64,000 nucleotides of DNA, taken from contig NZ_HG964497.1 in the NCBI RefSeq assembly GCF_000613125.1, forward strand, positions 292,823-356,822. Direction: 5' to 3'. How positions within the stretch are numbered: position 1 is the stretch's first letter; every line of letters begins with the position of its first letter. The notes beneath the pieces were generated by a model. That model made no database searches and was not told where the DNA came from. It saw only the letters and a program-made list of their open reading frames with translations. This DNA is from Bacillus sp. EB01. GTDB lineage: Bacteria > Bacillota > Bacilli > Bacillales > Cytobacillaceae. Both the position numbers and the translations under genes were made by a program. Positions 15,139-32,398 of the stretch are shown here, piece after piece.

Positions 15139-15690
15139 GTGAAGCTTAAGGTTTTTACAGTTGCTTTGTTTCTTGGCATTATCCTGGCCGGCTGCAGCGA
15201 AGACAGCACCAAAGTCGAGAACTCAGCTAACGAAACAGCTGCCAATCAGAGTGAAACCCCTGCAGTTCAGGAATTAATAGCGGATATCAGTTCAGGTAAA
15301 ACAGAAGTCGAAGCTGCTTCAATCACATCTGACCAGCTTATCATTAAGGGAACGGATGGAACTGAAACTGTTCATGAGTTACCGGCAGACCAATTCTTTG
15401 TATCCATTGCCCCTTATGTCAGCCAAACCCATGAATGAGGTACTCATAGCCTGGCAGGTTGTCAGGGAGAGCTTATGAATGAGGAATTTGATGTTGTCAT
15501 CGAAGACAATGAAGGAAATATTGTAGTAGACAAAACGTTGAAATCCGGAGCAAATGGATTCATTGATTTATGGCTGCCCCGGAATAAAACATACAATGTA
15601 AAGATTGAATACGACGGCAAAGTAACAGAATCCCAGCTGTCTACTTCCCAGGGAGATATCACTTGCATCACCACCATGCAATTAATATAG
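15139..15690 (+). CDS. CueP-family lipoprotein, predicted selenoprotein (TGA = Sec100)
   Basis: The first part (15139-15435) has a lipoprotein signal (LAGC, Cys19) and ends PYVSQTHE before TGA at 15436-15438. The frame continues without another stop as GTHSLAGCQGEL...GFIDLWLPR...GDITCITTMQLI, which is the second half of the CueP copper-binding family. In the family the interrupted position is a cysteine (THxC...C). A hairpin with loop GGT follows at 15450-15466. I therefore read the TGA as selenocysteine rather than a stop; Cys108 and Cys176 are retained. GTG 15139 has AAGGAG eight bases upstream. Total 183 aa. CueP holds periplasmic Cu in Salmonella; an extracellular copper or redox role is inferred. 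Confidence 0.82.
15450..15466 (+). promoter_or_regulatory. Predicted bacterial SECIS hairpin of the CueP gene
   Basis: CCTGGCA pairs with TGTCAGG (7 bp, one G-T) around a GGT loop. The first loop G is 19 nt after the TGA, within the spacing known for bacterial SECIS elements, and the GGT loop resembles that of E. coli fdhF. Confidence 0.75.
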
Positions 15691-15705
15691 CAGCACGATA
15701 AATCG

Positions 15706-15740
15706 AGGGCCCAGCTGTTATGCGCTGGGCCCTTTCTTGT
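15706..15740 (+). terminator. Terminator after the CueP gene
   Basis: AGGGCCCAGC pairs with GCTGGGCCCT, followed by TTCTTGTTT. Its place after 15690, not after the internal TGA, supports a single transcription unit for both halves of the gene. Confidence 0.85.
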
Positions 15741-15766
15741 TTGCCAAAATGGAGCAAGAGAATTTT

Positions 15767-16072
15767 CTCGACGAATCACACTCCGCAGGCCCTAGTTCCG
15801 TCTAGTAAATCCTTTTTCTCGACGAATCACAATCCGCAGGCCCTAGTTCCGTCTAGTAAATGCCTTTTTCCCGACGAATCACACTCCGCTTGCCCTAGTT
15901 CCGTCTAGCAAATGCCTGTTTCTCGACGAATCACACTCCGCAGGCCCTAGTTCCGTCTAGCAAATGCCTTTTTCTCGACGAATCACACTCCGCAGGCCCT
16001 AGTTCCGTCTAGTAAATCCTTTTTCTCGACGAATCTCACTCTGCCGGCCCTAGTTCCGTCTAGTAAATCCTT
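15767..16072. repeat. 51/52-nt period repeat array D (6 units)
   Basis: CTCGACGAATCAC-type units start at 15767, 15818, 15870, 15922, 15974 and 16025 (spacings 51, 52, 52, 52, 51). Units are highly alike, and each carries CGACGAAT and a later CCGTCTAGTAAA segment that pair imperfectly as inverted arms. The array fills the gap between converging cueP and speD. An ORF-like frame through it is only a by-product of the repeats. Confidence 0.9.
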
Positions 16073-16210
16073 TTCTAACACTTCTCTCTCGTTTTTACAT
16101 GGAAGCTTTCTGTTGTATCGCATAATTTCGTGCGATGTTTATACTTCCGAAGCAAAATGAGCTTGTCTCTGCGATTGAAGTCCTCAGAAGCTTCCTTTGT
16201 AGAGCGGAAG

Positions 16211-16251
16211 TCAAAAAGAGGGTGTCCCAAGTATGCCTTTGGGACACCCTC
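16211..16251 (-). terminator. Terminator after speD
   Basis: On the minus strand GAGGGTGTCCCAA and TTGGGACACCCTC form a 13-bp stem followed by TTTTTG. Confidence 0.9.
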
Positions 16252-16281
16252 CCTTCACAACCTATCCTTCTCAAATCAGGA

Positions 16282-17163
16282 TCAGTTTTTCTTTCTCTGC
16301 ACTTCGTTCTCCAGGTTCTCACGGAAGGCTTTCTCGGCGTTCTTATCAAAACTGCCCATGTAAATATTTTTCCCATAAAAAATTTCATCCATCTCCCATT
16401 TGATGCTGCCTTCAATTTCCTCGCGCTGCTCCTCGCTTAACTTGTCCTTCGTATAGCCGAACAGATAATTGTTCAAGTCGAAATCACGCAGCTTGCACTT
16501 TGTATGGAATATGTTTTCCTGGTACACATTCACATCGATCATATGAAACTTATCAGCCACCTCATCCGGAATGTAATTCTGGATTGACGAAATCTCATGG
16601 TCAATAAACAGCTTGTAGCCTTCCTTGTCACGCGTGAAACCACGCACCCTGTAATCAAGCGTCATCACATCTGTCTCGAACGAATGAATCAGGTAATTGA
16701 GCGCCTTCAGCGGCGAAATCTCTCCGCAAGTCGATACATCAATATCGGCGCGAAACGTCGAAATCCCCTCATCCGGATGATACTCCGGATATGTATGAAC
16801 CGTAATATGACTCTTATCAAGAGAGAGTGTCACATTTGATGGCAGCGGCCCAGGCGATTCCTCAAAATGCTCGGTCGGCACCTCGACAACCGGGCCCTCG
16901 GACACTAGCATCGTCACGCTCGCACCCTGCGGCACATAATCCTGCTTCGCCACATTCAACACATGCGCCCCGATAATATCCGCGACATGCTTCAGGATTT
17001 TTGTCAGGCGATCCGCATTGTACTGCTCATCAATATACTCAAGGTACGCCTCGCGCTCCTCCTTCGTGCCCGTATAGCAAATATCGTACATATTAAAACT
17101 TAAACTTTTCGTCAAATTATTGAAGCCATGCAGCTCCACACGTTGCTGCGGTGTCAAATCCAT
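16282..17163 (-). CDS. speD: S-adenosylmethionine decarboxylase proenzyme, E. coli-type SpeD
   Basis: SpeD makes decarboxylated AdoMet for spermidine synthesis. The sequence follows the long E. coli type (293 aa) rather than the roughly 125-aa form usual in Bacillus: [13 protein letters not shown] at the start, LDKSHIxVHTYPE, [22 protein letters not shown] and [14 protein letters not shown]-like motifs. Self-cleavage would occur between Lys117 and Ser118, with Ser118 becoming the pyruvoyl cofactor. ATG 17163 has a G-rich GGAGGGGG site upstream. No spermidine synthase gene is adjacent. The gene stands alone with its own terminator, and the class suggests acquisition or alternative ancestry. 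Confidence 0.95.
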
Positions 17164-17417
17164 GATAGCAAACCCCCTCCGGATCTCGTAAATACTAATA
17201 TCATACCCATTCCAACTTCAAAAAAAACGACGATCGTTTTTGTGAAAACCAACAGCCGCCGAAGCTTATTCATAGCTGATCCATACGCCACGCCAGCATC
17301 ACTACCCCATTCCACCATACGCAACCTTCTCCGTCACAAAACGTTTGAAAAGCAACAGGTTTCCACCATGGTTTCCTTGTTAAAATAAGGTTGTAAATAA
17401 ATGAAAGGAAGAAGGCC

Positions 17418-17876
17418 ATGAAATTATCTAGATATTTGCTGCTGATGTTTTCAATCCTGGCCGTCGGCATCATTTCTGCCTGCAGTTCGCAATCATCAAC
17501 TGAAGAGCTGACATTGGATCCGAAGCATACTGCCTTGCCAGATTATGTTCTCCAGACTCCTGATAAGGTACAAGAAACATATGTTATGGCCGCCCAGCAT
17601 CCCGATGCACTTGCATCTGTTCCATGCTATTGCAGCTGCGGCACCGGATCCGGCCATGAAAGTAATTTGGATTGCTTCATCAAGGGAATGGATTCCGACC
17701 TTGCTGTAACTGAATGGGATCCGCACGGCACCGCTTGAGACATTTGTGTCAATATCGCCCGGGAGGCGGTAGAAATGAAACAAGACGGTAAAAGCCTGAA
17801 GGAAATCCACGAAGCTATTGTTGAAGAATATTCATCCTATGGTGAAGGAACTCCGACACCTGTCCCAGCAAACTAA
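17418..17876 (+). CDS. PCYCGC-motif lipoprotein 1, predicted selenoprotein (TGA = Sec107)
   Basis: A lipoprotein signal (IISAC, Cys22) precedes the metal/redox motif PCYCSCG (Cys70, 72, 74) and NLDCF. The first frame stops at TGA 17736-17738 after WDPHGTA, but reading on gives DICVNIAREAVEM...SLKEIHEAIVEEY to a TAA at 17874-17876, the normal C-terminus of PCYCGC-motif proteins, where the family has HGxxCxxC. The TGA replaces the first cysteine of that CxxC, giving Sec-Asp-Ile-Cys. A hairpin with loop CGGGA lies at 17753-17771. ATG 17418 has GGAAGAAGG upstream. The second copy at 18061 has the same TGA. Role unknown; probably extracytoplasmic copper or thiol chemistry. Confidence 0.85.
17753..17771 (+). 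promoter_or_regulatory. Predicted SECIS hairpin, PCYCGC gene 1
   Basis: TATCGCC pairs with GGCGGTA (7 bp, one T-G pair) around loop CGGGA. The loop begins 22 nt after the TGA and its second base is G, as in bacterial SECIS models. Confidence 0.75.
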
Positions 17877-17889
17877 AATAGCCTTATTT

Positions 17890-17935
17890 CAGAGCTCTTC
17901 CGTTAGTGGAGGGGCCTTTGTTTTAACATCTCGTA
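17890..17935 (+). terminator. Weak terminator after PCYCGC gene 1
   Basis: CTCTTCC and GGAGGGG can pair with wobbles, followed by CCTTTGTTTT. Confidence 0.4.
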
Positions 17936-18060
17936 TAACTGTTCATTATTTTTTAACCGTTTCTCGATAGTTTCTGCACATTTTTCCTTCATTCTTAGAT
18001 GGGAAGCAGAAACCGTCCTAGTATGACTAATCTAAAAACGTTATATAAGGAGGATAGACG

Positions 18061-18516
18061 ATGAAATTATCAAGATACCTAATGCTTATGTTTTCAATCC
18101 TTGCAATCGGCGTCATTTCTGCCTGCAGCTCGTTGGATACTGAAAACCTCGAGCTTGATGCAAAGCATGCTCCTCTGCCGGATTATGTCCTGCAAAGCTC
18201 CGATAAGGTCCAGGAAACGTACCTGTTGGCTGCCAAGTATCCGGAAGCTCTCGCCGCATCACCATGTTATTGTGGCTGCGGTATGGATGATGGCCATAAA
18301 AGCAACCTTGATTGCTTTATAAAAGGAATGGATTCCGACCTGGCCGTGACTGAATGGGATCCTCATGGCACCGCTTGAGACACTTGTGTCGACATCGCCC
18401 GGGAGGCGAGTATGCATAAGCAGAACGGTAAAGGCCTGAAGGAAATCCATGAAACCATTGTTGACCATTATTCGAACTTAGGGGAAGGGACACCGACTCC
18501 GGTACCCGCAAATTAA
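18061..18516 (+). CDS. PCYCGC-motif lipoprotein 2, predicted selenoprotein (TGA = Sec106)
   Basis: This is a tandem paralogue of the 17418 gene, with the same MKLSRY... signal ending ISAC (Cys22), motif PCYCGCG (Cys69, 71, 73) and NLDCF. TGA at 18376-18378 follows WDPHGTA again, and the frame continues DTCVDIAREASMHK...KEIHETIVDHY...TPTPVPAN to TAA 18514-18516. Divergence between the copies is spread over the part after the TGA with protein similarity kept, which argues that the downstream part is still translated. The hairpin CGCC-CGGGA-GGCG is identical in both. ATG 18061 has AAGGAGG seven bases upstream. Total 151 aa. Confidence 0.86.
18395..18409 (+). promoter_or_regulatory. Predicted SECIS hairpin, PCYCGC gene 2
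   Basis: TCGCC pairs with GGCGA around loop CGGGA; the loop begins 22 nt after the TGA, the same geometry as in the first copy. Confidence 0.72.
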
Positions 18517-18527
18517 TAGGCCATAAA

Positions 18528-18568
18528 GAGAAGGCATTCACTGATTTAACAAGCGAATGCCTTTTTTG
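18528..18568 (+). terminator. Terminator after PCYCGC gene 2
   Basis: AAGGCATTC pairs with GAATGCCTT, followed by six T. It comes after the distal TAA, not after the internal TGA. Confidence 0.85.
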
Positions 18569-18673
18569 TATATATTTGTTTTTGCCGAATCGCTTTCTCT
18601 GGCACATAGATTGCTTCTATGTTACGTTTTTAAGCTTTCCGGCCCCGGTTCGGGAACATAAATTGCTTCTCAG

Positions 18674-19009
18674 CTACGCAGCCATTTTCCGGCAAGCCTC
18701 GGCACAACGGAAGCAGGCCTCCGCACATTTCCTGCAATGTTCATGATGATGTGCATGCTTTTCACATTCTCTGCCGCACGCTTCGCAAATTTCCGCACAC
18801 AGGTCACAGATCTCTTTTACAAAAGGCGATTTCGACTGCATCGCCTTAATAGCAAATGCACAGATGTCGGCGCACTCCCGGTCCGTGCGTATGCACTCCG
18901 CCATCATCTTGACGTCATCCTCTCGAAGACAGGCATCATAGCAATGGTTGCATGCTTCCATACATTCAAAGCACGCCTCAATACAATCAATATAGTGCTG
19001 ATTTCCCAT
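18674..19009 (-). CDS. Cys-rich four-helix copper-binding protein (Csp-like)
   Basis: The 111-residue protein carries cysteines at helical spacing throughout (CIEACFECMEACNHCYDAC, then CADIC, CDLCAEICEACGREC and CRKCAEACFRCAEAC) plus a HAHHHEHC segment. This is the pattern of the DUF326 / Csp four-helix bundle proteins, which store Cu(I) inside the bundle. There is no signal peptide, so it should be cytosolic. ATG 19009 has AGGAGG nine bases upstream. Its position beside copA/copZ/csoR and the CueP and PCYCGC genes supports a copper role. Confidence 0.87.
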   Translation of the reverse strand: MGNQHYIDCIEACFECMEACNHCYDACLREDDVKMMAECIRTDRECADICAFAIKAMQSKSPFVKEICDLCAEICEACGRECEKHAHHHEHCRKCAEACFRCAEACRKMAA

Positions 19010-19124
19010 CCCGTTCCACCTCCTCTACCTTTTAACAATACCCGTGGCAGAGCAATTGAAACGATTATTTAACAGTGAGGGGGCGAAGTATTCCCATGAC
19101 TATCAACGATCTCATTTCCAACCA

Positions 19125-19335
19125 TTTCGAGTACATTTTGAACCCGGCTGCCTATCGAATTGTCCTTGAATTACTATTTCGGGTACATTTTGAGCCCGGC
19201 TGCCTGTCGAATTGTCCTTGAAATACTATTTCGAGTACATTTTGAACCCGATTACCTATCGAATTGTCCTTGAATTATCATTTCGAGTACATTTTGAGCC
19301 CGGCTGCCTATAAAATTGTCCTTGAAGTTTCAAGT
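19125..19335. repeat. 52-nt period repeat array E (4 units)
   Basis: GTACATTTTGA units start at 19131, 19183, 19235 and 19287, exactly 52 nt apart, alternating with (A)ATTGTCCTTGAA. The arms TTTCGAGTACA and TTGTCCTTGAA are imperfect complements. It is the same family as array C near uvrA. It occupies the gap between the Csp-like gene and the copA operon. Confidence 0.88.
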
Positions 19336-19380
19336 TAATTAATCATGCATGTGTGCAAAGTGATTAAAAAGCGACCAAAT

Positions 19381-19417
19381 AAAACAGGCCAGAGTCCGAT
19401 GAACTCTGGCCTGTTTG
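19381..19417 (-). terminator. Terminator of the copper operon
   Basis: AAACAGGCCAGAGT and ACTCTGGCCTGTTT form a 14-bp perfect stem; on the minus strand it is followed by TTTATTTGG. Confidence 0.88.
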
Positions 19418-19425
19418 TGTATATT

Positions 19426-19551
19426 TTAGTGGTTCGATTGTTCATGCTGCGCCGGAGCTTCATCTGGACCCAAAACTGCCGAGTACACTCCATAACCGGC
19501 TATTACTAATACGAGATATGCCACGGCTGCAATTGTCCACTTCTTTATCAT
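19426..19551 (-). CDS. 41-aa single-helix membrane peptide downstream of copA
   Basis: An ATG at 19551 with GGGAGGG upstream opens a 41-residue frame beginning MIKKWTIAAVAYLVLVIAGY, one transmembrane helix, and ending in a short hydrophilic tail with AQHEQSNH, which contains two His. It lies 12 nt after the copA stop and just before the operon terminator, so it is the last gene of the copper operon. I cannot assign a family; a small accessory subunit or metal-binding tail of the copper exporter is conjecture. Confidence 0.7.
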   Translation of the reverse strand: MIKKWTIAAVAYLVLVIAGYGVYSAVLGPDEAPAQHEQSNH

Positions 19552-19563
19552 CTTTTTCCCTCC

Positions 19564-22002
19564 CTACAATTTCACCTTTTGGAGGCGGAGTGCATTCAGG
19601 ACGACCGATACGGAACTGAACGCCATCGCAGCACCAGCGAGCCATGGAGCGAGGAAGCCAAGGGCTGCAATCGGTATTCCCAATGTATTATAGCCAAATG
19701 CCCAGAACAGGTTCTGTTTAATGTTGCGGATAGTCAGCTTGCTCATAAAGATGGCATCGGCAATGCTGTTCAAGTCGCCGCGGATCAAGGTAATGTCAGC
19801 CGCCTCCATAGCAACGTCCGTACCTGTACCAATCGCCATCCCGATGTCAGCGACTGCTAGGGCAGGGGCATCATTGATGCCATCACCAACCATCACAACT
19901 TTTTTACCGGCAGCTTGGAGCTTTTTCACTTCCTCTGCCTTGCCTTCAGGAAGGACTTCGGCAATAACGTTGTCAATTCCAGCCTGAGAAGCGATCGCCT
20001 TCGCAGTCTGGGTGTTATCGCCTGTAATCATGATTACGTCAAGGCCCATTTCTTTCAGGCGTTTGATCGCCGCCTTTGAAGTGTCCTTGATTGTATCAGC
20101 AACTGCAACGATTCCAGCATACTGGCCATCAATTGCAACTAGCATTGCCGTTTTTCCTTCGCGCTCTAGTGCATCCATTTTCTCAAAAGCAACTTCGCTG
20201 TTAACTCCATTCTTTGCCATTAGTTTACGTGTCCCAATTAGCAAATCGCGGCCACTAACAGACGCTTTTATGCCAAAACCAGGGATGTTTTCAAAAGAAG
20301 TACCCGAAGATAAATCCAAACCTTTTTCTTTGATGCCCTGTACGATCGCCTGGGCAAGCGGATGCTCGGATTGCTTTTCGGCAGATCCTACAAGCGCTAG
20401 AAATTCATTTTCTTCCATAGTCCCTGAAAGGATGACATCGGTCAAAACAGGCTTTCCATTTGTAACAGTACCCGTTTTATCTAGGACGACTGTATCGATT
20501 TTATGTGTCATTTCAAGATGTTCTCCGCCCTTGAACAGGATGCCATATTCCGCAGCACGTCCTGAACCTGCCATGATAGAGGTCGGAGTTGCCAGGCCAA
20601 GTGCGCATGGGCAGGCAATTACAAGCACAGCGATCATTTTTTCAAGCGCCTCGGCAAAATTGCCAGGCTCTGCCCAGAAGTACCAGACAAGGAATGTAAC
20701 AACGGCGATACCGACAACAATTGGAACGAAAATCCCGGAAATCTGGTCAGCCAACCGTTGGATTGGCGCCTTTGAGCCCTGCGCTTCCTCAACGACCTTA
20801 ATGATTTGGGCCAGGGCTGTGTCGCGCCCAACTTTGGTTGCTTCAATTTTAATAAAACCATTCTTATTTATTGTCGCACCAATGACTTCATCTCCTGCTG
20901 CTTTATCAACCGGAACGCTTTCCCCGGTCAGCATCGATTCATCAATGGCAGACTGCCCCTCGACAATCCGGCCATCAACAGGAATCTTGTCGCCTGGTTT
21001 AACGTGGATGATGTCGCCAACAAGCACTTCTTCAAGAGCAATCTCAACCTCTGCCCCGTCACGTTCGACGATTGCAGTCTTAGCCTGGAGCCCCATCAAT
21101 TTCTTGATTGCTTCGGATGACCGGCCCTTTGCCTTTGCCTCGAACAGCTTTCCAAGGATAATGAGAGTCAAAAGGACGGCACTTGTTTCATAGTACAGCT
21201 CAACTGAATGTGCATTGCCCCCGAGTGATACAAATGACAGGTATAGGCTGTAGAAATAGGCTGCCGATGTACCGAGCGCAACAAGCACATCCATGTTGGC
21301 ACTGCCATTTTTCAATGCTTTGTAGGCACCAACGTAGAACTGGCGGCCAATTATAAATTGGACCGGTGTCGCGAGCGCAAGCTGTACCCACGGATTCATG
21401 AACATATCCGGAACATAAATGAACGAGGTAAACGAAAAGTGACCAACCATTGACCATAGGAGCGGCAAGGACAGGATGAGCGAGAAAATAAATTTCCCTG
21501 TCTGGTTTTCAATCTCCCGCTGGCGATAGTCCGCTGTTGCCTGCTCGTTTGCTTCTTCCTTTAGGGCTGCACCGTAGCCAAGCGCCTCAACCTTTTTAAT
21601 GATATCTCGTTCCGAAAGGACGGACGGATTGTATTCAACTGATGCCTTTTCAAGGGCAAGATTGACATTCGCCTTGGTAATGCCGTCCATCTTGTTCAGG
21701 CCTTTCTCAATTCTGGTCGAACAAGCGGCACACGTCATTCCTGTGATATCAAACTCCTTTTTCTCGGCTACGACATCATAGCCAAGATCTCGGACCTTGT
21801 TTTCAAGGCTGGCAAGGTTAGTGACAGCCGGGTCAAATTTGACCGAAGCCCTCTCGAGTGCAAGGTTAACGTTCGCTTCCTGTACGCCCTCAAGCTTGTT
21901 TAAGCCTTTTTCAATCCGAACTGCACAGGCGGCACACGTCATTCCGGTAATTTGTATCGTCGTTTCTTTTGCAGGTTTTTCTAATGCTGTACCCGTACTC
22001 AT
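19564..22002 (-). CDS. copA: CopA, Cu(I)-exporting P1B-type ATPase
   Basis: The 812-residue pump has two N-terminal metal-binding domains ([13 protein letters not shown] near residue 19 and [13 protein letters not shown] near 87), the membrane CPC motif ([10 protein letters not shown]), the actuator GESVP loop, phosphorylated Asp in DKTGT (about residue 508), the HP motif (SEHPLA) and [10 protein letters not shown]. These define a Cu(I) exporter of the plasma membrane. ATG 22002 has GGGGGAG eight bases upstream. It is preceded by csoR and copZ, and a CsoR operator lies directly before its ribosome binding site, so a second internal control point is likely. Confidence 0.97.
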
Positions 22003-22017
22003 ATTCTCAACTCCCCC

Positions 22018-22034
22018 ATACCCCGATAGGGTAT
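22018..22034. promoter_or_regulatory. CsoR operator before copA
   Basis: ATACCC-CGATA-GGGTAT is a perfect inverted repeat of the CsoR type. It lies between copZ and copA, 16 nt upstream of the copA start. Confidence 0.82.
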
Positions 22035-22126
22035 ATTTTCTTGAAAAAAGAACGTGCCAACAGATTTAGGCACGCGCCGTTTGAATCCAACTCCAGCAAC
22101 GCCGCTAAACGGGTGCCTTCGCTTTT

Positions 22127-22333
22127 TTAGACTACATCGTAGCCCTGGTCTTCAATTGTTTCCTTAATTTTGTCCAATGAAACGCTATCGTTATTGTACT
22201 CGACTGCAACTGTTTTGGCGCTAAGGTCAACAAGGACACGCTCCACACCATCCAGCTTGCCTACGCTGCCTTCAACTGCTTTGACGCAATGTCCGCAAGA
22301 CATACCTTCTACATTCAATAATGTTTTTTCCAT
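22127..22333 (-). CDS. copZ: CopZ, copper chaperone
   Basis: The 68-residue HMA domain has the Cu(I) site GMSCGHC at residues 10-16 and the usual beta-alpha-beta-beta-alpha-beta length. It passes Cu(I) to the N-terminal domains of CopA and to CsoR. ATG 22333 has GAGGGG upstream. It lies 27 nt after csoR and 125 nt before copA on the same strand, forming csoR-copZ-copA. Confidence 0.96.
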   Translation of the reverse strand: MEKTLLNVEGMSCGHCVKAVEGSVGKLDGVERVLVDLSAKTVAVEYNNDSVSLDKIKETIEDQGYDVV

Positions 22334-22360
22334 AAGTAAACTTCCCCTCTCAAATCTAAT

Positions 22361-22708
22361 TTATTTTTTCATGAGCCTTTGAATTGTAACAAGCAGCTCA
22401 TCAACAACCTCGTGATCGCCTTCCTGGATGCGTTCAACAACACAGCTTTTCATATGTCCTTCAAGCAGGATTTTTGCGACGGAATTCAAAGCGGCCTGTG
22501 TTGCAGAAATTTGTGTAATGACATCATCGCAATACGTATCCTTGTCAATAAGGCCTTTAATGCCTCGGATCTGCCCCTCAATACGATTTAACCTTGTGAT
22601 AAGATTTGATTTCGTCTTCTCGGAATGATGGCTTTTTCGGGCAGAGTTTTCAGTATTGCAATGGTCTTCACACACAGGTGCTGTTTCTTCACGGTTAATT
22701 ATTTCCAT
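22361..22708 (-). CDS. csoR: CsoR, copper-sensing repressor
   Basis: The 115-residue protein belongs to the DUF156/CsoR family: an extended hydrophilic N-terminus containing extra Cys and His (CEDHC), then LITRLNRIEGQIRGIKGLI and the Cu(I) ligands in YCDDVITQI and EGHMKSCV (Cys-His-Cys). Cu(I) binding releases DNA. ATG 22708 has GGAGG seven bases upstream. It is the first gene of csoR-copZ-copA, and a G/C-tract region just upstream may be its own operator. Confidence 0.95.
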   Translation of the reverse strand: MEIINREETAPVCEDHCNTENSARKSHHSEKTKSNLITRLNRIEGQIRGIKGLIDKDTYCDDVITQISATQAALNSVAKILLEGHMKSCVVERIQEGDHEVVDELLVTIQRLMKK

Positions 22709-22736
22709 TCCATCGCCTCCTCACACTTATATTACT

Positions 22737-22755
22737 ATACCCCCCCACCCTATGC
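22737..22755. promoter_or_regulatory. Possible CsoR site before csoR
   Basis: ATACCCCCCCACCCTAT has the terminal ATACCC half-site and a C-tract but is not a clean palindrome. Its place just upstream of csoR suggests autoregulation. Confidence 0.45.
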
Positions 22756-22877
22756 AACTATTACTTCTTATGATTTTTTAAAAATTCTCTAATTCCGTAC
22801 ATAGTGTCCCGATTTTGTCACAATTTATGATTTTAAAGGATTCTTTTAAAGAAAGTAGCATTTTTACAGTCCAAATG

Positions 22878-22902
22878 GTTTCAACTATTCTGCAAAGGGT
22901 AA
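22878..22902 (+). promoter_or_regulatory. Sigma-B promoter of rsbY
   Basis: GTTTCA, a 13-nt spacer and GGGTAA fit the sigma-B consensus GTTTAA-N12-14-GGGWAW. It lies 64 nt before the rsbY start. Confidence 0.7.
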
Positions 22903-24102: not shown

Positions 24103-24114
24103 AAGTCACTAATG

Positions 24115-24353: not shown

Positions 24354-25173
24354 TTACTTTTACTGAAGTCTTCTTATATACCTTTTCTAACGGGTCAAAT
24401 TCTTCAAAATTCGGATGTACGTCAGTCCGGATGGCCTCTTTGCTGCCAAGCCCCAGAAAACCTCCTACGCTGAGACTCCCGTCAATCAGGTTCAGTACAT
24501 GACGCTGCAAATCCTGATTGAAATATATGAGTACATTACGGCAAATAATCACATGAAATTCATTAAAAGACCCATCCGTAACCAGGTTATGCTGGGCGAA
24601 TACAATCTTCTCGCGCAATGCGGGAACAATCGTAGCGAAATGGCTATCAGCTGTATAATATTCCGAAAAAGCCTGTTTTCCGCCCGCCTGTAAATAGTTT
24701 TTTGTATAGGCCTGCATTTTGGAAAGCGGAATAATACCATTCTCTGCTACCGTTAGTACCTTTTCACTCATATCAGTCGCATAAATCTTCGACCGCTCCC
24801 CAAGTCCTTCCTCTTCCAGCAAGATGGCCATGGAGTATGCCTCTTCGCCAGTTGAACAGCCTGCGTGCCAGATGCGGATTTGTTCAAGCTTCTTCAGGCG
24901 CGGGATAACATTACGCCTAAAGGATGCAAAGAAACTTGGATCACGGAACATTTCTGTTACATTAATTGAAAAGTCATCAAGCAGCTTCCTCAAAACTGTT
25001 TCATCCTCAATGATCTTTTCCGTCAAACGAGAAATTCCCGGAAGCTGTTCAAGACGAAGCCGATTCTGCACCCGACGCATAATCGATGAATTCATATACT
25101 GCCGAAAATCAAACCCCGACAGCCTATACACCGCTAAAAGCAGCAACTCTAATTCTAAGTCTTCCTTTTGCAA
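24349..25173 (-). CDS. rsbM: RsbM, CheR-type methyltransferase
   Basis: The protein has the CheR all-helical N-domain (residues 1-75), the SAM site IWHAGCSTGEEAYSMAILL, and the catalytic-domain motifs FRDPSFF and IICRNVLIYF, so it is a protein-glutamate methyltransferase of about 275 aa. In B. cereus RsbM methylates and restrains the sensor kinase RsbK; the same arrangement directly after the hybrid kinase supports this. There is no chemotaxis gene nearby. TTG 25173 lies seven bases after GGAGG; the TTG one codon earlier is also possible. A palindrome just upstream could affect translation. Confidence 0.85.
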   Translation of the reverse strand: MQKEDLELELLLLAVYRLSGFDFRQYMNSSIMRRVQNRLRLEQLPGISRLTEKIIEDETVLRKLLDDFSINVTEMFRDPSFFASFRRNVIPRLKKLEQIRIWHAGCSTGEEAYSMAILLEEEGLGERSKIYATDMSEKVLTVAENGIIPLSKMQAYTKNYLQAGGKQAFSEYYTADSHFATIVPALREKIVFAQHNLVTDGSFNEFHVIICRNVLIYFNQDLQRHVLNLIDGSLSVGGFLGLGSKEAIRTDVHPNFEEFDPLEKVYKKTSVKVN

Positions 25174-25183
25174 CAAAATACCT

Positions 25184-25215
25184 CCCGGGGTAGGGGTCTG
25201 ACCCTTACCCCCTAC
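25184..25215. repeat. Palindrome between rsbK and rsbM
   Basis: CCCGGGGTAGGGG and CCCCTACCC face each other (9-bp perfect stem GGGTAGGGG/CCCCTACCC) around GTCTGACCCTTA. It lies between the rsbK stop and the rsbM ribosome binding site, whose GGAGG touches its edge. Confidence 0.75.
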
Positions 25216-25227
25216 CCGTATACCTTC

Positions 25228-28041
25228 CTAGTTCTGTGCGAGCCAGACTCTCATTGCTGAGAGGAGCTGGTCGATTTTGAGTGGCTTGGAGATATAGTCT
25301 GATGCGCCTGCTTCAAGGCACTTTTCTTTGTCGCCTTTCATGGCCTTGGCGGTCAAGGCGATGATAGGGAGTTCGCCAAACCTCTCCATCCCCCGGATTT
25401 GCTTCATGGTTTCATACCCATCCATTACAGGCATCATAATATCCATAAGGACAATGTCAACTTTTTCAGTTGTTCTAAGGACCTCAAGGCATTCCATTCC
25501 GTTTTCCGCTGTAATGATTTTCATGCCTTCCTTTTGGAGAGCCTTTTCAAGAGCATAAATATTGCGGTGGTCATCATCGGTAATGATTACTGTTTTACCG
25601 CTTAGGCCATTGGATGGCTCCTGAATATTGTTGTTGCCGGAATTGATGGCTATTGCAGTAGCACTTTCATTGGCATTAGCTGTAGCCGTATCGTTCTTTT
25701 CATGGTTCATTCCAACAAATGACCCAGCTTCAGAACCATGTTCAACGCCAATTGCGACCTCTTTACTTGCTTCATGAATCGGATTAATTTCCTGGACACC
25801 TTGCGGCAGGCTTGGCAGAAGCAGAGTGAAGGTACTTCCTTTTCCTTCCTCGCTCTCCAACTTGACCGTCCCGCCCAGCAGCCTTGCAAATTCCCTTGAG
25901 ATTGACAGGCCAAGGCCGGTGCCGCCGTATTTCCTCATCGTAGCCCCGTCGACCTGCTGGAATGCCTCAAAAATATGCTGATGCTTATCTTTTGGAATAC
26001 CGATCCCAGTGTCGCTGACCGATATCTTCAGCCAAGTATCCGACACAGGGAAGTCAGGCTGTTCCTTTTCAGAAACCTGTTCAACCTGGACCACTACCGC
26101 TCCCTGTTCTGTAAACTTGAACGCATTTGAAAGAAGGTTTTTGACAATTTGCTGAAGGCGCTGTTCGTCCGTATAGAACAGCTCAGGCAGGTCGTCACCC
26201 AGCTCAACCATAAAGCCCAGTCCTTTTCGAACTGCATGATGTGAGAATACGTGCTCGATCCTTCCCCCGAAGTCGGAAATATTTACAGCATCAAATACAA
26301 CCTCTAACTTCCCTACCTCAACTTTTGACAAATCAAGTATGTCATTAATTAGGTTTAGCAAATCCTGCCCGGAAGTATGAATAACTTTAGCAAAATCTTT
26401 CTGTTCTTCAGTCAGATTTGACTCCTCTTCCTCACCGAGCATTTCAGAAAGCAGCAAAATGCTGTTAAGAGGAGTCCGCAATTCATGGGACATATTTGCA
26501 AGAAATTCCGATTTGTATTTCGAGCTTTGTTGCAGTTCTCTTGCCTTAATTTCAAGGTCTTCCTTAGCCACCTGCAATTCAGCCGATTTTTGCTCGGCAT
26601 CCCGTGTACGTTCCTCAAGCTGCTCATTGATCATCCGCAGTTCCTCTGCCTGTGTTTGCAGCTCCTCGGACTGGGCCTGAAGCTCTTCCGATTGCGACTG
26701 TAGCTCTTCAGCCTGAGCCTGTGATTCAAGCAAAAGGCGCTCAACTTCCATCCTGCCAAGAATATTCATGACCGCAATTCCAAGCGTCTCAAATACCTTT
26801 TCGGCAAGCCGCTGCTGCGCCTTAGTAAATGGCTTCAAAGAAGCAAGCTCAACGACTGCCACCGTTTCATCCTTGACCATGACCGGTGCAATCAAAATAC
26901 TCTTCGGCCTCATTGAACCTAGCCCCGTCGAAATGGCTGTATAATCCTCCGGAACATCTTCCATATAAATCATTTCTTTTACGGCAGCGCTCTGGCCGAC
27001 TAATCCTTCGCGCAAGGCAATTTCCTCCCGGCCCGCCGTTCCGCCGCCATCAGCATAAGATGCAATTTTCTTCAACGAGTTATTTTCCATTAAATAAAAT
27101 GCGCCAAGGCTTGCTCCGACAGCAGGGGACAATCTTTCCATCAGCTGCCTTGCAAGCGATTCAACCTCGGTACTTCTTGTATAGAGGTTGACAAGTTCAG
27201 CCGATTGAGTCTGAACCCAATTCTGCTCGGAGATTTCTTCCGTAAATTCTCTTTCCTTCATATAAAATGTCTCCAGTGAGGCAGCCATTGAATTAAAGGA
27301 GGCAGCAATTTTACCTATCTCGTCGTGTGATTCCACATTCAGCCTTGGAATTTCCTCCAGGTTGTTGTAATCGACATTCTGGATACCCTCCGTTACAGCC
27401 TCCAGGCTTCGGCTCGTGCTCCGGATGACCCATAATGTGACAAGCGAAATCAAAATAGTTGCCGAGACAACTGAGGCAATAAGTGACAGAATTAACTGGT
27501 CATATGCTGAATTCGCAGTCTCAAGAGACTCGTTCATCAAGCCTTCCTGATATGTCTTGAATTCATTAACCTTTTGTAAAAGTAGGTTTTTATCGTTTTC
27601 CGCACTATAATAAATTTGCTGCAATTCATTTTCTGTAGCTCCTGATTCCAAGGCGGCCAACAACCGTTGCTCCATATTCAGATAATTTGTAAAGGCTGTA
27701 TCAATTTCGCCAAGAAGCATTTTAGACTTTTCCTTATTTAATGTTCCTTCAAGCTCAAGAATTGATGTCCGTATGAATTCCTGATTTTCCCGAAGCAACG
27801 GAATGACTGTTTCACTGTCTGTACTCGAGCCATCGTAAATAATATTGACTAGCTCTCGGTCCGTCAAAAGGACAGACTGCCTGATAGCTAAGGCAGCATT
27901 CACTTTGGCATACTGGTCCTCAACGATGTCCAGCATGTTCTCTCTCATTTTTCCTGTATTCAATAAAATGACAAATAATAGCACAACTAAAAATAAGACT
28001 GTTAATCCCAGTCCCAGCAATTGCTTTTTCCTAAATGTCAC
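25228..28041 (-). CDS. rsbK: RsbK-type hybrid sensor histidine kinase
   Basis: The order of domains in this 937-residue protein is: membrane helix (about 7-28), extracellular CHASE3-like helical region (30-180), second membrane helix (185-208), HAMP, GAF (about 270-420), a long coiled coil of repeated QSEELQAQ heptads, HisKA with phospho-His in [14 protein letters not shown], HATPase (DTGIGIP, GTGLGLS) and a C-terminal receiver ([11 protein letters not shown]). This is the build of B. cereus RsbK, which activates RsbY. GTG 28041 lies seven bases after GGTGGG; the frame extends to 28077 without a better site. rsbM follows directly. Confidence 0.86.
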
Positions 28042-28157
28042 AGCTATACCCACCCACTTTCTATCGGAATCTACCATACTCCCTTGTAGTTACTACTATA
28101 ACAATAGTGCTATGTTTTATCGAGGAATATGGCAAGATTATGGTGGATTTTTTACTG

Positions 28158-28191
28158 GAAAAAGGCTGACTGCATACGCAGCCAGCCTTTA
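28158..28191. terminator. Hairpin, probable terminator
   Basis: GGCTG-A-CTGC pairs with GCAG-C-CAGCC with one mismatch and has T-rich flanks on both sides. It lies between rsbK and the SpoIIAA-like gene. Confidence 0.5.
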
Positions 28192-28348
28192 AATTTGGCT
28201 GTGTTAAACAAGTGTGTTGATTTCCGCTACACAAAGGAAAGCTCCTGAGAATATTCATCAAAGTGACACAAAGGATAGCAACCTTGAATTAACATCGCAG
28301 AGACAGGCGTTCTTTGCCTATCGCGAGGCAGCTCTTTGCCTGTCACGA

Positions 28349-28384
28349 GGCACTTCGCTTTCCGTGGGGCGTGCGGGGAGCCAG
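28349..28384. repeat. GCACTTCGCTTTCCG-type dispersed repeat
   Basis: GGCACTTCGCTTTCCG followed by a G/C-rich tail recurs at 63083 in this window. The surrounding 440-bp gap (28078-28515) also holds tandem variants of CTTTGCCT(A/G)TC(G/A)CGAGGCA (28314-28350) and no gene that I can support. Confidence 0.75.
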
Positions 28385-28515
28385 TCTTGCTTCAGTGCCT
28401 AGCCCCTCGAGGTCGCTTTGGTCCCTCAAGTAAAGTCAAAGAACATTGCTATAAAATTACAATATCCATTTTAAAACAGCCTCAAATTCAATTGATTGAA
28501 GTTAGGATATTTCAC

Positions 28516-28872
28516 CTACTCTTTCAGCCACGCCCAGGCCGCCTCTTCTTCCCCTTTGTCAAAATGCCTCGCTTCAAGGCCGGGCAGAAATCTCCCCAGC
28601 TCTGTGACAGCTTCAAGCCATTTCAATTCTGTTACGACGGCAAATTTACGGAACTGGCTCCAGCGCTTCGCATCGAATTTCATTCCGTAGGCCATACCCA
28701 TCAGTGTTGTCCCGTCCACATCGTGCATTTTGGCAAATATATTAAATTTGTTGTTTTCTCCAAATCTTTCTTTCACATATTGCTCAAGCTTCTCCGCATC
28801 TTCTTTTGTCGCAGTACCACTGAATTCAACTGCAATTGTTGATTCATCCCTGCTTGGAATAAAAGTTAGCAT
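28516..28872 (-). CDS. SpoIIAA-like (STAS fold) protein
   Basis: The 118-residue sequence matches the SpoIIAA-like family (PF11964 type): MLTFIPSRDESTIAVEFSGTATKEDAEKL at the start, then FNIFAKMHDVDGTTLMGM and FAVVTELKWLEAVTEL. These are single STAS/CRAL-TRIO-like domains with no established function. ATG 28872 has AAAGGAGG eight bases upstream; the frame reaching 28914 lacks such a site. It lies beside the sigma-B kinase module, but a functional tie is not shown. Confidence 0.8.
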   Translation of the reverse strand: MLTFIPSRDESTIAVEFSGTATKEDAEKLEQYVKERFGENNKFNIFAKMHDVDGTTLMGMAYGMKFDAKRWSQFRKFAVVTELKWLEAVTELGRFLPGLEARHFDKGEEEAAWAWLKE

Positions 28873-29015
28873 GCCATCAGCCTCCTTTTCTAGACTTTGG
28901 GTGTTTCCACCCAAAAATGGTATCTATCCTTCGATTCCCCGGCGAAGTCTCTATGAAACTTCAGTACAGTCATGATAAAGTAATGGTAAACAATGGAATA
29001 AGGGGGATGATGCTG

Positions 29016-29552
29016 GTGAATTCATACATCGCATTATTGCGCGGGATTAATGTGAACGGTCATAACATGATCAAAATGGCCGAGCTGAAGGCTTTGTTTG
29101 AGGAACTGGGTTTTGAAAAAGTTAAAACGTACATACAGAGCGGCAATGTTTTATTTTTGGCTAACGGCGGAGCCGGGGAACTTGCGGTTAAAATTGAAAA
29201 GGCGATTTCGGAAAGGTTTGGCCTGGCAGTCCCGGTTGTCATCCGGACAGCTGAGGAATTTGATTCAGTGATCGCCAACAGCCCCTACCCGCCCGAAAGT
29301 CTTGCCGAAGGGGAACTAATTCATGTTGCCTTCCTATCGGATATTCCGTCTTCGGAGGCGATAAAGCGCCTGGAAAAATACTGTTCAGAAACCGAAGAAT
29401 TTACGCTTATCGGCAAGAACATTTACTTATTGCTGCGTAAAAATTTCCATACATCGAAGCTGTCAGCAAACGTTATGAAGCTCGGCGTCCATGCCACACT
29501 CCGAAACTGGCGGACAACTGCCAAGCTCGCCGAACTTGCAAGGACACTATAA
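29016..29552 (+). CDS. DUF1697 protein
   Basis: The protein carries the diagnostic N-terminal ALLRGINVNGHN and VKTYIQSGNVLF motifs and a C-terminal KLGVHATLRNWRTTAKL motif of the DUF1697 family (about 178 aa). The function of the family is unknown. GTG 29016 lies nine bases after GGGGG; the ATG codons at 29007 and 29010 are inside that site. The frame is open further upstream but overlaps nothing conserved. It is monocistronic, divergent from the SpoIIAA-like gene. Confidence 0.82.
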   Translation: MNSYIALLRGINVNGHNMIKMAELKALFEELGFEKVKTYIQSGNVLFLANGGAGELAVKIEKAISERFGLAVPVVIRTAEEFDSVIANSPYPPESLAEGELIHVAFLSDIPSSEAIKRLEKYCSETEEFTLIGKNIYLLLRKNFHTSKLSANVMKLGVHATLRNWRTTAKLAELARTL

Positions 29553-29571
29553 TCCTTATTTAAACAATTGT

Positions 29572-29610
29572 ATAAAAACTAAAAAGCGGTCTCTCATCAA
29601 AGAGACCGCA
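29572..29610 (-). terminator. Terminator after kimA
   Basis: GCGGTCTCT and AGAGACCGC form a perfect nine-pair stem, followed on the minus strand by TTTTTAGTTTTT. Confidence 0.85.
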
Positions 29611-29629
29611 AGACAGTTATCGTCCCCTT

Positions 29630-31456
29630 TTACTTTTTCAAGTGGTATGGGACGGTTGTAATGATGATGTCGCGCCGGTAAAGCAAGTAGGCACGGATTA
29701 ACAGGCTGGATTGATTGTGGAGGATATTGTGCCAGCCCTTCTTCGGAATAAATTGCGGGATGATCACCGTTACCTTATAGTTTGATTCGGCAGCCTTGTG
29801 CTCAACAATGTCTACAAATTTAGTCAGTGGATGAATGATGCTCCGATACTGGGAGTATAGCGTAACAAGGCGGACATCCGGCTGCCATTTTCCCCATTTT
29901 TCCTCAAAACGCTTCTGCTCCTCCTTATCAAAGGAAACATAAACCGCAATCAATTTATCGGCATTTAGCGACTTTGCATAATTCAGCGAGTTCTCGACCA
30001 CGTGGGTGATTCCAGCTACCGGAATGATGATGACATTACCGGCTACTTCCATTGCCGGCTCACTTGCCGCAACCCTAAGTTGTTCGGCAACTTCTAGATA
30101 GTGTTTATGAATCCTGTGAAATATATAGATAATCAGCGGCAGGAACACTAGCACTGACCAGACCTGGGCAAACTTTGTTAAAAAGAACATGACCGTTACG
30201 ATGAAGGATATAACTGCTCCAGTCGCGTTAATTGCAAGCTTCATCTTCCAGCCAGCCGGTTTTTCACGGAGCCACTTTAGGATCATTCCCGTCTGCGAAA
30301 GCGTGAACGGTATGAATACGCCAACCGCATAAAGCGGAATCAGGTTTTCCGTATGTCCCCTGAACACAACAATTAACAGGATGGATGCCACTCCAAGGAA
30401 GATAATCCCGTTTGAATAGCCAAGCCTGTCACCGCGGATCGTGAACATCCTAGGTATGAATTTATCCTTTGCAAGATTCACCGCGAGCAGCGGGAATGCA
30501 GAATAACCAGTGTTTGCAGCCAATATCAATATCAGTGCAGTTGTGAACTGGATGAAGAAATACATCCAATTACGGCCAAATACAGATGATGCTATTTGCG
30601 AAACAACCGTCTCTTCTACTTTAGGGGTGATACCGTAAAAATAGCCGAGCAGGACAATTCCTGTAAATAGAATAGCCAGCAACCCCCCCATCGCCGCCAG
30701 TGTTTTGGCTGCGTTTCTTGGAGCCGGGTCCTTAAAATTCGGGATTGCGTTCGAGATTGCCTCTACCCCGGTCAGCGCCGAGCTTCCGGAAGCAAACGCC
30801 CGCAGCAGCAGGAACAGCGAAATGCCAGCAACCGGTGTTCCAATCGGTGCACTCAGCTCCGGCGGGACCTGCCCGGTTGCTACGTTGAAGAGTCCGACTC
30901 CAATCAGGATAAACAAGGCCAGCACAAACAAATAAACAGGATAAGCAAGCACCGAGGCCGATTCGGTCACACCGCGAAGATTCAGGGTCGTAATAAAAAT
31001 CACGAACAATATTGCAATCCCCACATTTTGGTCATGCAGTGATGGGAAAGCCGAAGTAATCGCATCTGTACCAGCCGATACGCTTACCGCTACTGTTAAA
31101 ATGTAGTCCACCAGCAGCGACCCGCCGGCAATCAAACCGTAGTTGGTTCCAAGGTTTTCCTTCGAAACAACATACGCTCCTCCACCCTGGGGATAGGCAT
31201 AAATGATTTGCCCATAAGAAAGGATAAGTGCGAGAAGCAGCACCAGAACGCCGAGCGCAATAGGCAGCGAGTACCAGAATGCAGCGGCACCAATCGTCAC
31301 AAGGACGAGCAGGATTTGTTCAGGGCCGTACGCTACAGAAGACAGCGCGTCCGAGGACAAAATCGCCAATGCCTTTGTCTTACTCAGCCTCTGCTCCCCA
31401 AGTTCATTGGATTTCAAAGGGCGCCCAATCAAATACCGCTTAATAGGTGATTTCAC
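29630..31456 (-). CDS. kimA: KimA, c-di-AMP-controlled potassium importer
   Basis: This is an APC-superfamily transporter (608 aa) with about 12 membrane segments up to residue 460 and a cytosolic C-terminal domain of about 145 residues (IIIPVAGITHVVENSLNYAKS), the build of KimA (YdaO). N-terminal landmarks are GRPLKSNELGEQRLSK and LSSDALSSVAYGPEQ. KimA imports K+ with high affinity by proton symport and is inhibited by c-di-AMP. GTG 31456 has GGAG ten bases upstream. The ydaO-type riboswitch and its terminator precede the gene, so transcription should fall when c-di-AMP is high. Confidence 0.92.
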   Translation of the reverse strand: MKSPIKRYLIGRPLKSNELGEQRLSKTKALAILSSDALSSVAYGPEQILLVLVTIGAAAFWYSLPIALGVLVLLLALILSYGQIIYAYPQGGGAYVVSKENLGTNYGLIAGGSLLVDYILTVAVSVSAGTDAITSAFPSLHDQNVGIAILFVIFITTLNLRGVTESASVLAYPVYLFVLALFILIGVGLFNVATGQVPPELSAPIGTPVAGISLFLLLRAFASGSSALTGVEAISNAIPNFKDPAPRNAAKTLAAMGGLLAILFTGIVLLGYFYGITPKVEETVVSQIASSVFGRNWMYFFIQFTTALILILAANTGYSAFPLLAVNLAKDKFIPRMFTIRGDRLGYSNGIIFLGVASILLIVVFRGHTENLIPLYAVGVFIPFTLSQTGMILKWLREKPAGWKMKLAINATGAVISFIVTVMFFLTKFAQVWSVLVFLPLIIYIFHRIHKHYLEVAEQLRVAASEPAMEVAGNVIIIPVAGITHVVENSLNYAKSLNADKLIAVYVSFDKEEQKRFEEKWGKWQPDVRLVTLYSQYRSIIHPLTKFVDIVEHKAAESNYKVTVIIPQFIPKKGWHNILHNQSSLLIRAYLLYRRDIIITTVPYHLKK

Positions 31457-31540
31457 AGTTGGTCATCTCCAATAATATAATTGTTCCAAGAAGAGATTTG
31501 CCTTTCCAGCCCGAAATGTGGTTATTTTTCCAAAAGACCA

Positions 31541-31583
31541 CAAAAAAATGCCCACAAGTCATCACGAAGAGACTTGCAGGCAT
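31541..31583 (-). terminator. Riboswitch-controlled terminator before kimA
   Basis: On the minus strand ATGCCTGCAAGTC pairs with GACTTGTGGGCAT, followed by seven T. It lies directly after the c-di-AMP aptamer. Confidence 0.88.
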
Positions 31584-31607
31584 GAAGGGTTCAGTCCAGC
31601 AAGCTTC

Positions 31608-31733
31608 ATCTTCCTTCCCAATAACGCTTACGAGGTTAGCTGCCGGATTCGGGCGCATGAGTTGCCCTACCTTTAAAAAGGATTCACCCCATGTTCGAGT
31701 GGTTCCCCCGCACCAATTGGTTTCAGCGATTTA
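31608..31733 (-). promoter_or_regulatory. ydaO/yuaA-type c-di-AMP riboswitch aptamer
   Basis: The minus strand shows the conserved blocks in order: CGCTGAAAC, GCGGGGGAACCA, GGGGTGAATCC, AAGGTAGGGCAACTC, GCCCGAATCCGGCAGCTAA and CCTCGTAAGCG, ending in GGGAAGGAAG. These match the ydaO motif, an OFF switch for K+ import genes when c-di-AMP is bound. Confidence 0.93.
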
Positions 31734-31927
31734 GGAATTTGAAACTGAACTTACTATACTCCCGTGAACTCCTTCTGTAAAGAAGATAAATTGTGAAATT
31801 TTTATAAAAAAAACTAGCCTGTATCCCTATTTCTTGGGACACTTTCCCGCGAATCCCTCACCCTGCATTCACAGGGACAATCTGGTATCATAAACATACG
31901 TTCAGCTATTTGAAAGGGGCCCAACAA

Positions 31928-32398
31928 ATGAGTGAACCCATTGAGTTAACACGGATTAAAATTAACCAGGTTAGTGTCGAGGATAAAGTCAAGGAAGCGT
32001 ATATCGGTGATTTCCCCGAACCTATCAGGTTTGGAGTCCATAGCGGCGTGAAGAAGTTTTACGGGGCAACACCCCAAGTAGAATATCCATCAACATTGGA
32101 TCACATCGTTGCGGCAGCAGGCGGCTGACTGGTCGGGACCTTATCAGGCGCGCTGGAGGCGCGTAAAATACCCGCAGCACCCGACAAAGTTAGTGCCGAC
32201 GTCGTCGGAACCATTGAAAATGTCAATGGCATACTCAAAATCACCAAAATCAGTGTTCATTACAGCCTGAAGATACCCGCTGGCAAGCGTGAGGCTGCCG
32301 AGCGAGCGCTCTCTGTTTTTGATCGGGGCTGCCCAGTATCACAGACTCTTAAGAACGCAATAGAGTTTGAACACACACATACAATTGAAGAATATTAA
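31928..32398 (+). CDS. OsmC-family peroxidase, predicted selenoprotein (TGA = Sec67)
   Basis: The upstream part ends HIVAAAGG at a TGA (32126-32128) and the frame continues LVGTLSGALEARKIP...FDRGCPVSQTLKNAIE...IEEY to TAA at 32396-32398, a complete OsmC/YhfA-type protein of 156 aa. In OsmC proteins the residue after GG is the peroxide-reacting cysteine; here it is TGA, while the resolving Cys135 (GCPV) is kept. A hairpin with loop TGGAG follows at 32148-32164. Sec at a peroxidatic position is chemically sensible. ATG 31928 has AAAGGGG eight bases upstream. Confidence 0.88.
32148..32164 (+). promoter_or_regulatory. Predicted SECIS hairpin of osmC
   Basis: GCGCGC pairs with GCGCGT (one G-T pair) around loop TGGAG, whose second base, G, lies 27 nt after the TGA. 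An upstream GGTC/GACC mini-stem may stack on it. Confidence 0.7.

Follow-up and report, generated by a model that had tools for sequence, protein, structure and literature searches.

Candidate Selenoproteins in Bacillus sp. EB01, Among Them an Apparently Undescribed CueP-Type Family

A 64,000-nt stretch of the Bacillus sp. EB01 genome (NZ_HG964497.1), referred to here as the window and used as the frame for all coordinates unless stated otherwise, carries four genes that are each interrupted by one in-frame TGA at a cysteine (Cys) of the respective protein family. They encode a CueP family lipoprotein, two lipoproteins of the PCYCGC family and an OsmC-like protein. With a probability of about 95%, judged from sequence, these are bona fide selenoprotein genes whose UGA is decoded as selenocysteine (Sec). 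The reading is carried by a UGA at one conserved Cys codon, a complete Sec machinery in the host genome (5.28 Mb, a single contig), conservation of the Sec insertion sequence (SECIS) and the exchange of Sec for Cys among homologues. Actual insertion of Sec into the four proteins is predicted: SelB with Sec-tRNA(Sec), tethered by a hairpin 12-36 nt downstream, would serve the ribosome at the in-frame UGA, and Sec would enter at the place taken by a functional Cys in Cys-type homologues.

Genes Predicted to Be Read through UGA

Apart from the lone TGA, all four genes have an ordinary start codon and an ordinary end, and once the TGA is read as a residue their frames stay open to a normal C-terminus with no second stop. 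The CueP gene (15139..15690, + strand) would encode 183 aa, with Sec100 at the TGA at 15436..15438, the position of the first Cys in the motif THPCxxHxLxGC; its context is THEUGTHSLAGCQGE. The PCYCGC genes, both of the Sec type with a UxxC motif and both on the + strand, lie at 17418..17876 (152 aa; Sec107, TGA 17736..17738, motif UDIC) and 18061..18516 (151 aa; Sec106, TGA 18376..18378, motif UDTC), and the first protein contains PCYCSC where the second has PCYCGC. As for the Sec-type OsmC-like gene (31928..32398, + strand; 156 aa), its TGA (32126..32128, Sec67, context AAAGGULVGT) coincides in the alignment with the Cys that comes first in OsmC proteins. The positions, frames and family Cys agree with the first-pass annotation, which had placed the TGAs at 15436, 17736, 18376 and 32126. 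By appearance, CueP and both PCYCGC proteins would be exported lipoproteins; lipobox-type signals are seen by eye at their starts (LAGC in CueP, and ISAC).

The family assignments rest on profile matches that run across the TGA. In CueP, PF21172 covers residues 55-181 (E=5e-43, 146.5 bits, cut-off 27), and NF038094 is also over its cut-off (176.3 bits vs 60), with one conserved Cys replaced by Sec. PF13798 matches the two PCYCGC proteins with E=4e-32 and 2e-29 (111.8 and 102.8 bits, cut-off 25), and both stay below the cut-off of NF041379 (OS_HP4 CYCXC; 74.3 and 66.2 vs 90 bits). The OsmC-like protein matches PF02566 over residues 53-149 (E=1e-13, 52 bits, cut-off 27.5) and is far below the cut-offs of NF041052 (28.6 vs 95 bits) and TIGR03562; its first conserved Cys is Sec and its second is found in GCPVS.

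Alignment with known structures places the sites more precisely. In PDB 4gqz, the counterpart of the CueP TGA is the Cys that opens the series in THPCxxHxLxGC, and two conserved Cys together with most of the CueP domain are located C-terminal of the TGA site. The site would correspond to C96 in Salmonella CueP numbering, since it sits 8 residues from the next Cys, taken as the published Cys104. For the OsmC TGA, the counterpart in both 1ukk and 1qwi is the first Cys, which we take to be the peroxidatic one.

Selenocysteine Machinery of the Host

The first-pass annotation had proposed a search of the genome for selA, selB, selC and selD, and all four were found. The tRNA-Sec scores 65.2 bits, over the Rfam cut-off, and ARAGORN gives its anticodon as TCA; SelB scores 358.6 bits, and SelA (572 bits) and SelD (399.5 bits) are encoded side by side. 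The SelD gene itself contains a single in-frame TGA, and so does each of two formate dehydrogenase-type matches; the one examined reads TUHAP, presumably the classic Sec site of formate dehydrogenase. UHxP is given as a Sec site in a table within the accessible portion of a review (PMC13188914). Because tRNA-Sec, SelA, SelB and SelD are present together with a TGA-bearing formate dehydrogenase, this genome very probably decodes UGA as Sec independently of the four window genes.

The host tRNA-Sec lies ∼0.1 kb and 1.6 kb from two open reading frames (ORFs) that look like tyrosine recombinases, the family being assigned by ORF reading (region L009 3118-5769, genome C1:251118-253769), and it is possible that tRNA-Sec is an integration site in this genome. 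In genome G087, two over-cut-off tRNA-Sec matches are found 19 kb apart on contig C5.

Exchange of Sec and Cys among Homologues

Homologues were sampled from 151 genomes of the host's family, of which 93 have CueP and 129 have SelB over cut-off. Among 94 intact CueP copies, 78 carry TGA, all at one codon and without any other stop, and the remaining 16 have Cys there; eight rows were dropped from this count, namely disrupted genes (G148 and G132, two pieces each), remnants (G145 and G082) and weak partial matches (G053 and G136). The UxxC site of the PCYCGC family behaves likewise, with TGA and no other stop in 86 of 101 copies and Cys in 15, one of which carries a TAG stop elsewhere. These 101 were aligned from 104 loci examined, leaving out the degenerate L248 and the fragments L249 and L250; one more fragment row was excluded. 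The alignment of homologues, a check suggested beforehand, thus reveals Cys/TGA exchange at one codon in both families, and the single-site pattern over 94 CueP and 101 PCYCGC homologues bears out the first-pass argument that TGA at a key Cys is not random. As for OsmC, all 23 full-length copies have TGA, a count that leaves out rows at ≤55% identity, namely broken copies (G003, G032, G048 and G008) and distant OsmC families. The homologue search returned no close Cys ortholog of the OsmC-like protein, only distant OsmC proteins.

A second regularity concerns the machinery. CueP genomes with SelB over cut-off account for 77 TGA and 7 Cys copies, and those without it for 1 TGA and 9 Cys (Fisher p = 1e-7, uncorrected for relatedness). 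The presence of tRNA-Sec was checked in 28 chosen genomes: nine of the ten CueP genomes without over-cut-off SelB are also without over-cut-off tRNA-Sec, the exception being G058, and CueP is of the Cys type in all 8 near-complete genomes that have neither over cut-off. Mapped on a CueP tree of 94 rows, the Sec label has to change 9 times, and well-supported branches force at least 5 of these changes; 0 of 500 label shuffles reach as few as 9. The Sec state of CueP is thus inherited, because none of the shuffles is as low, and yet switches repeatedly, as the 9 changes indicate.

Could the four genes instead be recently inactivated pseudogenes with nonsense mutations? The standard code does end each ORF at the TGA, and decayed copies, with additional breaks or stops, occur in a few relatives. 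Against this stands the recurrence of the identical codon, with no other stop, in 78 CueP and 86 PCYCGC copies from many genera; moreover, the protein past the TGA is well conserved, and Sec and Cys types are intermixed on the CueP tree. On the strength of the one-site pattern the pseudogene reading was rejected, and it is extremely improbable.

A few genomic arrangements were noted in passing. On contig C10 of genome G047, the tRNA-Sec (85243-85335) is 0.8 kb from a Cys-type CueP gene (83924-84451). In four genomes of genus code g4 (G057, G078, G085 and G091), a Sec-type OsmC gene is found ∼7-8 kb from selB, and in G003 a decayed OsmC copy is ∼9 kb from selB.

SECIS Hairpins

Each of the four genes has a putative SECIS hairpin on the + strand just past the TGA. 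In CueP it is CCTGGCA-GGT-TGTCAGG (15450..15466, +12 to +28 after the TGA); those of the first and second PCYCGC genes lie at 17755..17769 and 18395..18409 (both +17 to +31), and that of OsmC at 32148..32164 (+20 to +36). In the family consensus structures, the loop starts 19 (CueP), 22 (PCYCGC) and 27 nt (OsmC) past the TGA, and G occupies the first two loop positions in all four window hairpins, in agreement with the distance of 19-27 nt and the two G given at first pass.

To what extent these structures exceed what the protein demands was gauged from the fold of the 48 nt past the site, compared with synonymous-codon shuffles and with a control stretch further downstream. The mean z is -0.73 for TGA-type CueP (n=78) vs +0.03 for the Cys type (n=16), -1.58 for TGA-type PCYCGC (n=86) vs +0.47 for the Cys type (n=15), and -1.71 for TGA-type OsmC (n=23); the downstream control gives -0.00 to +0.46. 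Copies with z below -1 make up 28% of the TGA type in CueP, 79% in PCYCGC and 87% in OsmC, and no Cys-type copy reaches this value.

The pairing itself points the same way. Every base pair of the CueP consensus hairpin, CUUGACA-GGU-UGUCAAG (+12 to +28), is kept in 64/64 distinct TGA sequences; the 15 distinct Cys-type sequences have another consensus hairpin, which is weak. In PCYCGC, the hairpin at +17 to +31 is paired in 78/78 distinct TGA sequences, 11 of which have changed on both sides of the +18/+30 pair, where both bases are third codon positions; the +20 to +36 hairpin of OsmC is paired in 19/19 distinct sequences. In single-sequence folds, G is found at the first two loop places in 63/64 (CueP), 74/78 (PCYCGC) and 19/19 (OsmC) TGA sequences. 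Collectively, the folds and alignments indicate that TGA-type genes, and only they, preserve a SECIS-like hairpin more than the protein sequence requires.

These data also bear on another explanation, in which the UGA is a regulated stop: the short product would be functional, and the rest would be made through occasional readthrough or with a non-Sec residue. Selenoprotein UGAs do partly act as terminators, and partial termination at them is general knowledge that fits this proposal. It is hard to reconcile, however, with a hairpin that is stronger than the encoded protein requires and confined to TGA-type genes, with Cys in CueP wherever a near-complete genome has neither SelB nor tRNA-Sec over cut-off, and with a TGA that precedes the larger part of the CueP domain along with two conserved Cys. 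A regulated stop is very unlikely, if marginally less so than pseudogenes, and decoding as Sec is the preferred reading.

Spread of TGA-Type CueP and Contrary Observations

When a genome collection of 84,980 species was scanned for a degenerate TGA-CueP pattern, 99 stretches matched, of which 80 are listed; tblastn finds a CueP match in all 99. By record name, 97 are Bacillota of the order Caryophanales, including 92 Bacillaceae, and the other two are one Chryseobacterium and one Pseudomonas. The Pseudomonas label is taken as wrong because the CueP part of that stretch is identical to CueP of G146, a member of the host's own family; the Chryseobacterium label is likewise taken as wrong, and that stretch is assigned to G057, of the same family. 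All 7 stem pairs and the GGU loop are present in 99/99 stretches. Among the 80 listed, a break near the site occurs in L310, L315 and L326, and a few reach the locus end. In a draw of 398 genomes across the phylum, CueP is found in 9, with TGA only in 2 of the host's family and Cys in 7. Plasmid records yield 23 CueP matches, every one below 60% identity.

Several observations weigh against decoding of these genes as selenoprotein genes. Genome G135 has a TGA-type CueP without SelB or tRNA-Sec over cut-off, the genome being 66% complete, and G058 (88% complete) has tRNA-Sec and a Cys-type CueP with no over-cut-off SelB. Likewise, G110 (99% complete, 5% contamination) carries a TGA-type PCYCGC gene (L235) without SelB or tRNA-Sec over cut-off, possibly through contamination, recent transfer or decay. 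Decay past the TGA in relatives, named at the outset as an outcome that would tell against Sec, is seen in few copies: CueP in G148 and G132, and OsmC in G003, G032, G048 and G008. With regard to the hairpins, the CueP z is modest, just over a quarter of its TGA copies lying below -1. Loop-start G is also found in 10/15 CueP and 8/15 PCYCGC Cys-type sequences and is therefore not specific by itself. Finally, GG, TGY and CAR of the CueP hairpin are fixed by the search pattern and the protein, which leaves the 5' arm and the U in third loop position as the sole independent parts of the 99-stretch count.

Copper Neighborhood and Proposed Function

The two PCYCGC genes adjoin a set of copper genes, all on the minus strand, and CueP lies 1.7 kb beyond. 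The set comprises a DUF326/Csp1-like gene for a cysteine-rich protein, probably for copper storage (18674..19009; Csp1 model under cut-off, 53.9 vs 100 bits), copA for a CopA-type copper P-type ATPase with two HMA domains (19564..22002; profile match), copZ for the copper chaperone (22127..22333; over cut-off), and csoR for a copper-sensing repressor of the CsoR/RicR type (22361..22708; RicR model 79.9 vs 175 bits, CsoR family by similarity). In the relatives G040 and G020, all four TGA genes are present in the same order as in the window.

The cluster supports a copper role of the PCYCGC proteins and falls short of proof because CueP elsewhere is rarely near CopA: in the 8-kb stretches covering 99 TGA-type CueP loci, CopA is found at 5, CopZ at 4 and CsoR at 3, which tells against a copper link. 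A conserved copper neighborhood of CueP in relatives was set aside as weak on these counts. The link to copper drawn at first pass is supported, for CueP by its family and for the cluster by the csoR, copZ, copA and Csp-like neighbors, but few loci in other genomes have CopA near CueP.

Selenolate is a softer and more nucleophilic ligand than thiolate; for this reason, the gain from Sec in CueP would likely be tighter binding of Cu(I) or a higher rate of Cu redox turnover. Most likely, the CueP selenolate, with the other conserved Cys, would bind or redox-handle copper on the outer side of the membrane, and the PCYCGC proteins would use their UxxC pair outside the cytoplasm for redox reactions or metal binding. 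Copper binding by CueP is presumed here as a property of the family. By analogy with its own family, the OsmC-like protein would have a role in peroxide defense, most likely as a peroxidase of the cytoplasm in which Sec makes the attack. The accessible portion of a published study (PMC13201067) describes Salmonella CueP as a copper protein of the periplasm and reports that copper resistance requires its Cys104. In Bacillaceae CueP, Sec would replace a Cys neighboring the Cys104 equivalent, in the same motif. On balance, a copper role seems rather likely.

An explanation that accepts Sec would assign it to general thiol redox or peroxide defense instead of copper handling. UxxC is indeed a redox motif and OsmC a family of peroxidases, and most TGA-type CueP loci have no CopA in the 8-kb stretch covered. 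Yet CueP is a copper-binding family in which the Salmonella Cys104 serves copper resistance (PMC13201067, in the same portion), and in the window csoR, copZ, copA and the Csp-like gene are neighbors of three of the four genes. A role of this kind is possible but doubtful, and copper handling is the interpretation retained below.

Relation to Known Families

The accessible portion of the 2026 review of prokaryotic selenoproteins (PMC13188914) lists OsmC-like proteins (UxxT) and CYCXC/PF13798 (UxxC), and contains no mention of CueP, PF21172 or NF038094. The main texts of a 2022 review, the deep-Sep paper and a 2016 survey do not mention CueP either. In the accessible portion of a 2006 survey (PMC1794560), copper and OsmC were sought and not found; CueP was not sought there by name. 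Among the papers listed by literature searches there was no report of a Sec-type CueP, and the sole co-mention of CueP, selenoprotein, selenocysteine and Bacillus is in an unrelated paper. In NCBIfam (June 2026), OS_HP4 and OsmC_like_Se are labeled as (seleno)protein and the CueP models are not. Being unmentioned in the reviews and surveys and unlabeled in NCBIfam, CueP is apparently an undescribed selenoprotein family; the PCYCGC and OsmC-like forms are new branches of known families.

Comparison with the named relatives is consistent with this placement. Salmonella CueP (PF21172, NF038094, 4gqz) shares the full-length match, the THPCxxHxLxGCQGE motif and the C-terminal Cys, whereas here the first motif Cys is a TGA with a SECIS and the protein is a lipoprotein in a Gram-positive. 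The PCYCGC proteins share with CYCXC (PF13798; OS_HP4, NF041379) an over-cut-off PF13798 match and the UxxC listed in the accessible portion of the 2026 review (PMC13188914), but they score under the NF041379 cut-off and are Bacillaceae lipoproteins with many Sec and some Cys forms. With the OsmC-like selenoprotein (PF02566; NF041052), the protein studied here has in common the OsmC family and Sec at the first Cys; it differs in its motif, U-x3-T vs the UxxT of that same portion (PMC13188914), and in that all 23 full-length copies are of the Sec type. Bacterial Sec decoding (SelA, SelB, SelC, SelD and bacterial SECIS) is matched in all four genes of the machinery and in G-initial hairpin loops 19-27 nt past the UGA; no difference was noticed here, the comparison being one of sequence.

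Other Features of the Window

The first-pass annotation had seen an ordinary terminator after the distal stop in the clear cases. This is the weak point of that annotation: a scanner places terminator-like sites 3' of CueP (15705-15734) and of the first PCYCGC gene (17894-17915), and none 3' of the second PCYCGC gene or of OsmC, where inverted repeats are seen by eye only; the numbers of such sites equal those in shuffled sequence (4 vs mean 4.0; 1 vs 1.0). Directly past the CueP terminator-like site, an array at 15763-16074 comprises 6.1 copies of a 52-bp unit, arranged head to tail and 93% alike. A c-di-AMP riboswitch (ydaO/yuaA; 31610-31738, minus strand) is located upstream of an amino acid permease gene (29630-31456, minus strand). 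Of 48 listed one-TGA frames in the window, four are the selenoprotein candidates; a Pfam scan of 10 of the 44 others gave no fifth selenoprotein, 4 matching on one side of the TGA and 6 not at all.

Conclusions and Outlook

Many Bacillaceae are aerobic or facultative. Aerobic bacteria seldom retain selenoproteins, according to the accessible portion of the 2026 review (PMC13188914), and in that of the 2006 survey just 3 selenoprotein families are given for Bacillales (PMC1794560). The present family offers a place to test this rarity of selenoproteins in aerobic bacteria. Sec-type genes are probably recorded as truncated or overlooked by annotation because gene callers end at UGA.

CueP, a copper-binding protein, would join the selenoprotein families, and its Sec form is the commoner one in the family sampled (78/94). 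As to the broader picture, the case is evenly balanced that Bacillaceae use Sec as an extracellular copper-handling residue, with CueP, as a new selenoprotein family, and the Sec-type PCYCGC lipoproteins forming a selenium-based extracytoplasmic copper defense that standard annotation has missed as truncated genes. The repeated exchange of Sec and Cys provides, in CueP, a natural experiment on what Sec contributes to copper chemistry.

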